Source: Terribacillus halophilus
GTDB taxonomy: Bacteria; Bacillota; Bacilli; Bacillales; Amphibacillaceae
Reading direction: 5' to 3'
Assembly: GCF_900162685.1 (NCBI RefSeq)
Contig: NZ_LT727827.1
Span: 351,971-415,970, forward strand
Length of the DNA stretch: 64,000 nucleotides
Both the position numbers and the translations under genes were made by a program. Under the pieces are notes generated by a model. It was given only the letters and a program-made list of their open reading frames with translations, was not told where the DNA came from and searched no databases. This document shows positions 18,793 through 20,743 of this stretch, piece after piece (within the stretch, counting starts at the first letter, position 1; the number at the start of each line of letters is the position of its first letter).

Positions 18793-20412
18793 TTATTTTA
18801 CTGCTTTCCAATGGTTCTTCGTTTGTTCATACGTTCCGATATGCCGGTGCAATACACCGTCTTCCAAATAAGCTGTATGAGAAAAGCAAGCATTCAGCAG
18901 ATGCCGATCATGGCTGATTCCGATGACCGTTCCATCAAATCGCTCCAACGCTTCCTCCAGAACTTCTCTTGACTCTAAATCCAGATGATTTGTCGGTTCA
19001 TCCAAAACGAGCAGGTTAATGCCTTCATGCATGAAAATGGCCAGCTTCAGGCGCATCCTCTCTCCCCCGCTCAACCGCCCAATTGGCTGAAATACTGTAT
19101 ACCCATAAAACATAAATGATGCCAGCATATGCCGTGCTTCCGCTTCAGCTACAGAAATGACAGATCGAAAATAATCAATCATGCGCATGCTGGCATCAGC
19201 TTCTTCTAATGGGTGCTGCGGTAAATACCCTGCATGAACTGCACCGCCAAGCTGCACACTTCCACGATCAGCAGTTAAGTCTCCAAGGATAATTTTGATG
19301 AGTGTCGATTTTCCGCTTCCATTATCCCCGACAATTGCTAAACGTTCTTTATAGCGGAGATGAAGCGAAATATCACGTAATATATCTCTTTCTCCGAAAC
19401 GCTTACTGATTGACTCCAAACGAATGACATCTTCTCCGCTGCGATTTTCAGCAGCCAGCTGAAGTTTCATCTTGGCAGGATCGATATTTGGTCTGTCGAG
19501 TTTCTCCATACGGTCCAAAGCACGCTCCATATTTCGCGCTCGCTTATGCAGTCCTTCATTCGGTGGATTAGCTTGGTTGGCCCATAATTTCAGGCGCTTG
19601 ATTGTTTCTTTCATTTTCTTAATTTTCTTCTGCTGTTCTTTGTAGGTTTCAAACTCCTGCAGCAGCTTTGCCTCTTTTTGATTCAGATAGGAGGTGAAAT
19701 TACCGGTATAGATTGTTACCTCTCCGTCTTCTAAATCTGCAATTCGTGATACAGTGGCATCCAGAAAATACTGATCATGCGAGATTACACAAACAGCACC
19801 GTGGTAATTCGCCAGGAAATTTTCCAGCCATTCAATTGCTGCGAGATCAAGATGATTCGTCGGCTCATCCAGCAGCAATAAATCCGGCTGCTGCAAGAGC
19901 ACGTATGCCAATCCTACCTTTGTTACCTCCCCGCCGCTGAGCTTCTCAAAAGGCTCTTCCAGCAAATGGCCAATATGCAAGCCATTGGCCGTCCGTGCTA
20001 TTTGAGCGTCCATTTCATACCCACCTGCTTCTGAGAATATAGTTTGAACTTCTCCGTATACATGAAGGGCTTTTTCCAGTTTCTCCGGGTCCAGCATCTG
20101 TTCTTCCAGCATTTTCATTTTCTCCTGTAAAGCTGCCAATTCACGAAAAGCACCTGCCAAGTATTGCCGAACAGTTCCGTCTCGACCGCCAGGTATTTGC
20201 TCTAAATAGCCTATCTTAGCATGCTTACGTATAAACACTTGCCCATCATCACAAGCTTCCACGCCTGTGAGCAATTTAAAAATAGTCGATTTCCCGCTGC
20301 CATTCCTGCCTACGAGTCCAAGTTTTTCTCCTGGTTTTAATTCAAAGTTAAGGTTGTCAAACAACAGATTTCCGCCCATGATTTTCTTTACGTTCTTTAG
20401 TGTAATTAACAT
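18793..20412 (-). CDS. ABC-F family ATPase (ribosome-associated; possible antibiotic-protection factor)
   Basis: A 539-aa soluble protein with two ABC cassettes and no membrane segments. Walker A motifs GLVGRNGSGKST (about 33-44) and AIVGDNGSGKST, signatures KLSGGEVTKV and RLSGGERMRLK, and two LLLDEPTNHLDL-type Walker B motifs are present. The charged interdomain linker (KEQQKKIKKMKETIKRLK to about ALDRMEKL) is the part that reaches the ribosome in ABC-F proteins. The start follows AAGGAG by 10 nt. A strong terminator sits only 22 nt before the start and a leader ORF lies upstream, the layout seen for drug-inducible ABC-F genes such as vmlR and lmo0919; which drug, if any, is unknown. Confidence 0.88.
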   Translation of the reverse strand: MLITLKNVKKIMGGNLLFDNLNFELKPGEKLGLVGRNGSGKSTIFKLLTGVEACDDGQVFIRKHAKIGYLEQIPGGRDGTVRQYLAGAFRELAALQEKMKMLEEQMLDPEKLEKALHVYGEVQTIFSEAGGYEMDAQIARTANGLHIGHLLEEPFEKLSGGEVTKVGLAYVLLQQPDLLLLDEPTNHLDLAAIEWLENFLANYHGAVCVISHDQYFLDATVSRIADLEDGEVTIYTGNFTSYLNQKEAKLLQEFETYKEQQKKIKKMKETIKRLKLWANQANPPNEGLHKRARNMERALDRMEKLDRPNIDPAKMKLQLAAENRSGEDVIRLESISKRFGERDILRDISLHLRYKERLAIVGDNGSGKSTLIKIILGDLTADRGSVQLGGAVHAGYLPQHPLEEADASMRMIDYFRSVISVAEAEARHMLASFMFYGYTVFQPIGRLSGGERMRLKLAIFMHEGINLLVLDEPTNHLDLESREVLEEALERFDGTVIGISHDRHLLNACFSHTAYLEDGVLHRHIGTYEQTKNHWKAVK

Positions 20413-20433
20413 CGCTTATCCGCTCCTTTTTTA

Positions 20434-20465
20434 TAAAAAAAGTCAGACAGCAAGACTGTCTGACT
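20434..20465 (-). terminator. Attenuator terminator directly upstream of the ABC-F gene
   Basis: Perfect 10-bp stem AGTCAGACAG/CTGTCTGACT (20441-20450 and 20456-20465) with a 5-nt loop, followed on the minus strand by seven T. The T run ends about 22 nt before the ABC-F start, so transcripts must read through it to express the gene. Confidence 0.88.
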
Positions 20466-20489
20466 CTGGCAAATTCGAAAAAAGGGTAC

Positions 20490-20515
20490 AAAAAAACCAC
20501 ACGCAGGGTGTGGTT
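20490..20515 (-). terminator. Upstream terminator in the ABC-F leader
   Basis: 8-bp stem AACCACAC/GTGTGGTT (20495-20502 and 20508-20515), loop GCAGG, then seven T on the minus strand. It is the first of two tandem intrinsic terminators between the leader ORF and the ABC-F gene. Confidence 0.85.
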
Positions 20516-20572
20516 CTCTTCACGCCTATTTTATTTGTCGTAGAGAAATAGATCCTGCACATTATTCAGTAT

Positions 20573-20680
20573 TCAGTTGGTAAAAAAGGGCATACGTATC
20601 CCGTTACCAACAAAACCATGAATAATCGCGCGGCGATGCAATAGATTTTGATCTGCTTCACGCGAAATATTGTGCAACAT
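20573..20680 (-). CDS. Putative 35-aa regulatory leader peptide of the ABC-F gene
   Basis: ATG at 20680 lies 6 nt after the near-perfect AAAAGGAGGGG. The product begins MLHNISREADQNLLHRRAII and ends NGIRMPFFTN. The codons for its last 12 residues form a hairpin (arms GTTGGTAA/TTACCAAC, 20576-20583 and 20604-20611, with an inner GGG/CCC). Position between a clear promoter and two terminators suggests ribosome stalling controls readthrough. No homologue is known to me; that it is translated is inferred from the ribosome-binding site. Confidence 0.6.
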   Translation of the reverse strand: MLHNISREADQNLLHRRAIIHGFVGNGIRMPFFTN

Positions 20681-20713
20681 CTGATTCCCCTCCTTTTCCT
20701 TATAATTATTTCC

Positions 20714-20742
20714 AGTATATGTGTTCAAGAGCAAATTGTCAA
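20714..20742 (-). promoter_or_regulatory. SigA promoter of the ABC-F leader
   Basis: On the minus strand TTGACA (20742-20737), 17 nt, then TATACT (20719-20714): a near-consensus promoter immediately after the upstream lipid-kinase stop codon. Transcription would start roughly 25 nt before the leader ORF. Confidence 0.85.
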
Positions 20743-20743
20743 A

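Follow-up and report, generated by a model that had tools for sequence, protein, structure and literature searches.

The window analysed here is a stretch of 64,000 nucleotides of Terribacillus halophilus DNA. Between a YegS-type lipid kinase gene and an ABC-F gene it contains a leader with a short upstream open reading frame (uORF) and two terminators; leader, uORF, terminators and ABC-F gene all lie on the minus strand (Table 1). What the first-pass annotation had described in this interval is indeed there: a near-consensus promoter, whose -35 box begins 2 nt beyond the lipid-kinase end (20744), a 35-codon uORF with an excellent ribosome binding site, a hairpin in the last uORF codons, which our folds place within a longer stem, and two strong intrinsic terminators. 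Promoter-like sites number 4 in the surrounding 1 kb against 2.2 expected, so the promoter match alone is weak evidence.

The ABC-F protein matches NF000355 (ribosomal protection-like ABC-F) with 438 bits at a cutoff of 380, and among the best 25 of the 194 matches listed this is the only NCBIfam model above its cutoff; the named resistance families Msr, Vga, Lsa, Sal, OptrA and CplR each score below theirs. Identity is 91% to the protein of Terribacillus aidingensis, 84-85% to four further Terribacillus records and 86% to a record named Virgibacillus sp. 7505. Judged by sequence, this is a Terribacillus relative, and the product of the gene presumably protects ribosomes. The source genome (3.45 Mb) contains 5 matches to the ABC-F linker domain.

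Table 1. Features of the ABC-F leader and gene, in order of transcription (positions in the window).
Feature	Position	Strand	Remark
sigma-70-type promoter, TTGACA-17-TATACT	20714..20742	-	11/12 consensus matches
Shine-Dalgarno sequence of uORF, AAGGAGGGG	20687..20695	-	read directly
P1 5' strand (uORF Shine-Dalgarno sequence and first codons)	20671..20691	-	pairs with 20542-20561; fold and swap test
uORF, 35 codons, MLHNISREADQNLLHRRAIIHGFVGNGIRMPFFTN	20573..20680	-	ATG at 20680, stop ends at 20573; equivalent uORF in 77/81 loci
P2 hairpin inside uORF	20626..20665	-	fold and swap test
peptide core NLLHRRAIIH	20618..20647	-	amino-acid-level constraint in family
P3, long hairpin over uORF end, element at tip	20562..20625	-	fold and swap test
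conserved element hairpin GGGATACGTATGCCC, translated as GIRMP	20588..20602	-	recurrent in family
T6 tract after element	20582..20587	-	would fit NusG motif TTNTTT if RNA polymerase pauses near 20577
P1 3' strand; part doubles as antiterminator strand	20542..20561	-	fold and swap test
predicted antiterminator, ~20537-20547 with 20514-20526 once a ribosome covers the start codon	20514..20547	-	constrained fold and swap test
terminator 1	20490..20517	-	-20.7 kcal/mol, z -5.4, 0/200 dinucleotide shuffles as good
terminator 2	20439..20467	-	13 pairs then T tract; -18.3 kcal/mol, z -5.1, 0/200 dinucleotide shuffles as good
ABC-F gene, 539 aa	18793..20412	-	ATG at 20412

To see what is conserved we compared 81 loci, the window and the best 80 of 485 relatives. 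In 77 of them a uORF preceded by a Shine-Dalgarno (SD) sequence carries the element; the exceptions are L063, L069, L073 (142 nt of upstream DNA only) and L074. The uORF search was confined to the frame that reads the element the GIRMPFF way, so that an open frame is found there by construction; across the same stretch the other two frames are open in 27 and 0 of the 73 distinct segments. The start codon lies 75-90 nt from the element in 73 of the 77 loci. An intrinsic terminator, called at -8 kcal/mol or lower, stands between uORF and gene in 76 of the 77 (one terminator in 41, two in 35, none in 1). The doubled terminator, which had been taken to be new, is thus a recurrent arrangement, and excerpts of PMC4335068 already describe erm(K) with two adjacent Rho-independent terminators.

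How much of the uORF is held as a peptide? Conservation of the uORF codons among relatives had been named as a check on the attenuator reading, and its outcome is positive for the uORF body and core and negative for the last, hairpin-coding codons. We counted differences in 273 close pairs. In the uORF body they number 1016/843/1507 at codon positions 1, 2 and 3, which is coding-like. The core codons (-14 to -7, ..RA[IK]FH..) give 314/134/493, with 388 synonymous and 313 non-synonymous differences. The seven element codons show 430/164/136, the reverse of coding constraint; only 26 of their differences are synonymous against 544 non-synonymous, and the third bases are near-invariant. Because of these two opposite patterns, we read the upstream core as held as a peptide and the uORF ending as held as nucleotides. 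Within the core, 20 of the 73 distinct leaders have RAKFA or RSKFA, the rest RAI, RAL, RAQ, CAI or RVL; the R-x-K of RAKFA and RSKFA fits the R/K-X-R/K macrolide stalling motif described in part of PMC6851288.

Element positions 4 and 12 covary (CT 28, TC 27, TT 11, GC 4, CC 3), which fits two registers of one hairpin. GIRMPFF is not conserved as a peptide; it is what a hairpin held at the nucleotide level, GGAY-NMGTNT-GYCC(-T6), spells when translated. The amino acids do recur in many genera, with a close form of NGIRMPFF in 24 of the 81 loci, as they should if the ending worked as an Erm-type arrest peptide, a drug stalling the ribosome at the C-terminal GIRMPFF codons and the stall throwing the switch. 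Against such an arrest stand the codon differences just given and the leaders in which the uORF does not read the element in this way. The uORF stops 1 nt before the element in L131 and L132; in L130 the best candidate frame, which has the core, stops 5 nt before it (a TTG-started frame reads through); and in eight R/KLRFP-type leaders (L106, L115, L118, L123, L125, L138, L139, L143) the uORF stop lies 43-45 nt before it. Elsewhere the element is read in other frames, as in L092, L116, L119 (which has a second candidate stopping before the element) and L133, and the uORF of L117, which starts with TTG and has the core FLYIVRAIFA, enters it in another frame. We therefore consider an arrest at GIRMPFF highly improbable, and a role of the GIRMPFFTN ending as the signal proper is not supported. 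More generally, where many genera share the end of a leader peptide, the cause can be an RNA signal, which calls for caution in reading amino-acid logos of uORFs. In the literature collection that we searched, six element or peptide strings were absent, also GIRMPFF, KFLYIVRAIF and RAIFSG, and RAIFH occurred once, in an unrelated paper.

The 318-nt leader folds far better than chance (z -5.7, 0/100 shuffles as good). RNAalifold on a single MAFFT alignment of 77 leaders returned just 3 pairs, we think due to indels that misalign the arms, and for this reason we relied on single folds and on a swap test, in which the arms of a helix are scored with their own partners and with those of other leaders. 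Separate folds of 15 leaders, picked by us for diversity and compared by eye, have a three-way junction in common, in which P1, formed by the uORF SD and start region and the strand just before terminator 1, encloses P2 and P3. The swap test used 40 non-redundant leaders from a k-mer cut; these sequences are related, so the counts per 5000 permutations are not strict probabilities. For P1, own arms score -24.6 kcal/mol against -16.2 kcal/mol for swapped arms, for P2 -12.2 against -10.2 kcal/mol and for P3 -13.9 against -8.2 kcal/mol, each with 0/5000 permutations as good. Pairing of the P1 3' strand with the 5' arm of terminator 1, the putative antiterminator, has more modest support, at -10.7 against -9.1 kcal/mol (0/5000) and 12/5000 in a narrower window. 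Four of five off-model pairings are unremarkable (333 to 1085 of 5000); the fifth, the P2 3' strand with the terminator 1 5' arm, gives 15/5000.

Is this antiterminator exclusive with P1? We modelled a ribosome on the start codon by masking it in 38 of the 40 leaders, having dropped two in which terminator 1 is far away. The probability that the 5' arm of terminator 1 is paired upstream rises from 0.21 to 0.57, going up in 34 of the 38 leaders and down in 1. Together with the swap test, this supports, in silico, a mutually exclusive anti-antiterminator and antiterminator. A single ribosome masked on the RA[IK]FH core changes nothing (0.21 against 0.21), and this bears on another reading of the leader, namely that the nascent peptide is sensed at the core ..Y..RA[IK][FIT][HA], where a drug- or stress-dependent arrest with queued ribosomes behind it would open P1. 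Such sensing would explain the amino-acid-level constraint on the core; the uORFs of L130-L132 end just past the core, L117 keeps the core though its element frame differs, and the consensus uORF of the Listeria RNA rliI, described below, has the same core. On the other hand, a single ribosome on the core frees the antiterminator in 0 of the 38 modelled leaders, and P2 pairing also constrains the core bases. We regard sensing at the core as possible but rather unlikely.

In our preferred reading, the leader senses translation and attenuates transcription of the ABC-F gene accordingly. RNA polymerase would make the uORF and then pause just 3' of the element hairpin, some 16 nt before the P1 3' strand, so that a ribosome gains time to load. 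Without drug the ribosome would leave, and both P1, which covers the SD and start of the uORF, and terminator 1 would form. With a ribosome detained at the start codon or the first few codons, P1 would stay open, and the freed P1 3' strand could then pair with the 5' arm of terminator 1, leading to readthrough. Terminator 2 would act as a second brake, with no switching partner detected. To this full stepwise model we assign a probability of about 0.77. In silico, attenuation of the kind known from vmlR and cplR has good support, in that folding models and sequence comparison support the uORF, P1, P2, P3 and the terminators, and the antiterminator more weakly; the response to drug and stalling at the start codon as the trigger are what we infer beyond this. 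The core, masked in the model without effect, is nevertheless constrained as a peptide; another stall, or ribosomes queuing, may therefore be the trigger. The first-pass proposal of ribosome-mediated leader-peptide attenuation is well supported by the recurrent uORFs with their coding-like bodies, by the terminators and by the switch folds.

An alternative partner for terminator 2 was sought in 19 leaders and not found, which counts against the model, since it does not account for readthrough there. In the 19 two-terminator leaders, we also looked for sequestration of the main-gene SD (translation attenuation) by comparing its region with nine leader segments, and none pairs better than swapped segments do, the best giving 306/3000.

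The same attenuation logic has been established by experiment for vmlR and cplR, according to excerpts of PMC9226507 and PMC10201436. As described there, the leaders of B. subtilis vmlR and C. difficile cplR resemble ours in having an SD-bearing uORF, a premature terminator, alternative structures and an ABC-F target. Their uORFs, however, have three codons (MIN and MR[I/M]), whereas the Terribacillus leader has a uORF of 35 codons, a conserved core, a three-way junction and the element hairpin inside the uORF. The B. subtilis tlrB (yxjB) leader, in the parts of PMC6851288 that describe it, likewise combines a leader peptide, a terminator, a strand sequestering the SD and a pause that leaves time for translation; it differs in its 9-codon peptide, its RYR arrest motif and its methyltransferase target, and the pause has been measured in tlrB whereas we infer one for the ABC-F leader. 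Leaders of the erm(K)/erm(D) macrolide type (..RLRFPTLNQ) are alike through the two terminators of erm(K). The eight R/KLRFP-type leaders that we read carry the same element and differ by another uORF and by the element's place after its stop. We see in this leader a new form of ABC-F attenuator; more surprising is the shared hairpin.

A further relative appears to be the Listeria RNA RliI (Rfam RF01487), which lies upstream of lmo2760. Its model matches the leader co-linearly over its full length, model positions 1-239, from the uORF SD region to terminator 1. The scores are 27.5 and 27.6 bits (E 3.2e-5 and 1.6e-5), whereas the gathering threshold is 45. The consensus encodes MLLSNARTSTAKFLYIVRAIFSGIA.. 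(MLLSNARTSTAKFLYIVRAIFSGIAVTLAK.. after a weak SD-like stretch), with the uORF core ..FLYIVRAIFSGIA, and its three-way layout is alike; it differs in having GGcgAAGUncgCC and then cAAAA where the Terribacillus leader has the element and T tract. Of seven rliI hits elsewhere, the four best sit on the element and the other three do not. The model is an insensitive probe, as it finds no match in the genomes G151, G203, G286 and G353, and an unrelated place in G273, though all carry the ABC-F leader. With the Listeria side represented by the Rfam consensus, rliI and the Terribacillus leader appear to form one family, which would link an RNA filed in Rfam as an sRNA, unlike our reading of it as an ABC-F leader, to a widespread ABC-F attenuator. 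Alternatively, the RliI-like RNA would work mainly in trans, as a terminated sRNA to which the ABC-F gene is incidental, and a review does report binding of Listeria RliI to the lmo1035-lmo1036 transcript (in a passage of PMC8079631). The leader nevertheless stays upstream of ABC-F genes, with a conserved uORF and alternative folds, and the same review, going by Term-seq, classes RliI as a putative conditional terminator of lmo2760. We give a role mainly in trans very little weight against attenuation in cis.

The element itself is not confined to the family. A search with GGAYNMGTNTGYCCYTTTTT in 398 genomes of the class gave 83 sites in 77 genomes, and a reversed control 1 site. When the loop was left free, 200 genomes gave 141 sites, 42 of them with an NMGTNT loop against 1.1 expected; the other 99 are close to the reversed control (about 96, counted by hand), so only the excess of NMGTNT loops is informative. 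Of the 83 sites we read 50, and 36 of these are followed on the same strand by an ABC-F gene, among them Msr (L138, 766 bits at a cutoff of 680) and a Vga-like gene below its cutoff (L104). Among the other 14, elements precede genes of a different kind: FexA in L133 (1043 bits, cutoff 900); RlmA-like (L139), Mef-like (L118) and MphL-like (L123) genes, all three below their cutoffs; ribD after FMN riboswitches (L111, L114); gcvT after a glycine riboswitch (L122), a match that may be partly owed to the aptamer; RidA-like genes (L120 by PF01042, L121 by resemblance); and an SDR gene (L148). Four sites (L100, L102, L141, L142) had no clear reading. In 15 of 23 element-bearing leaders, chosen by us, the uORF SD pairs with a strand 3' of the element so well that 10/200 shuffles or fewer (at most 5%) do as well; FexA and six of the eight R/KLRFP-type leaders are included. 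In the remaining eight it does not. At least one SD, that of L134, was probably misassigned.

Some of these sites deserve separate description. In L111 and L114 the hairpin and T tract are placed 3' of the FMN aptamer. The phenicol exporter leader of FexA (L133, about 1900-2330) has a uORF SD that pairs strongly downstream (z -5.7), and the frame of its element differs from that in the window. Both L082 and L083 have a methyltransferase-domain gene (PF08241 in L083) behind a leader peptide containing NGIRMPFF, and their uORF SD pairs downstream, with 0/200 shuffles as good in both. Ahead of the RidA-like genes of L120 and L121 is a uORF for a MKK[RS]..IRFLSMGIGFSTAVFF-type peptide, which stops 14 nt before the element; in these two leaders no pairing of the uORF SD with a downstream strand was found.

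What might such a hairpin do in leaders that are otherwise so unlike? It looks like a pause signal for RNA polymerase. According to parts of PMC12288461, a NusG-dependent pause in B. subtilis is marked by a hairpin ending 11-12 nt short of the RNA 3' end and by TTNTTT at positions -11 to -6, and in tlrB, as related in part of PMC6851288, such a pause gives time for leader translation ahead of the SD-sequestering structure. In the window, T6 comes immediately after the element hairpin; a NusG-pause layout is possible there and would have its RNA end near 20577. Among the 73 distinct ABC-F leaders, TTNTTT is present at the element in 42 and missing in 31, which keep the hairpin and 17 of which are named Halobacillus. 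The hairpin GGGACACGTATGTCC persists in Halobacillus loci such as L017 and L022, where AAAATGG replaces the T tract; it seems to be held there for a reason beyond the T tract. Loss of the tract through a changed NusG is not supported, as the 13 NusG proteins that we read have RNTPGVTGF (12) or RNTPNVTGF (1), so that all 13 retain the motif-contacting N and T. With 31 of 73 leaders lacking TTNTTT though the NusG contacts are kept, the pause is put forward here as a putative role, and its dependence on NusG more cautiously still.

A hairpin followed by a T tract, as in the 42 leaders, could also serve not for pausing but as an intrinsic terminator of low strength. Six example hairpins, however, reach only -1.5 to -4.5 kcal/mol, against -8 or lower for acceptance as a terminator, and the T6 tract is absent in the other 31 leaders, so that a terminator at this place seems improbable to us.

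Returning to the pause, we propose, at slightly less than even odds, that GGAY-NMGTNT-GYCC(-T6) acts as a portable pause hairpin for RNA polymerase, specific in sequence, in otherwise unlike Gram-positive attenuators (of ABC-F, Msr, FexA, RlmA-, Mph- and Mef-like genes, and in FMN and perhaps glycine riboswitches), placed where the polymerase has to let a ribosome or a ligand arrive. The conservation of its loop would imply recognition by polymerase or a Nus factor beyond the known TTNTTT contact, and in the ABC-F leader family it would have been built into the uORF, forcing GIRMPFF. If true, this would provide a testable candidate for a sequence-specific pause hairpin common to drug-sensing and metabolite-sensing switches.

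Viral contigs and plasmids were scanned with the element as well; a single viral contig and a few plasmid matches, short or unclear, came up. The viral contig, which is GC-rich and seemingly far from the class studied, has CGGGATACGTGTGCCCTTTTTT and then a terminator-like hairpin (L097:11685-11706). On plasmid pRE25 (L098:2501-2524) a sequence close to the element lies beside IS1216, at a place where no gene is annotated, and is possibly what remains of another leader.
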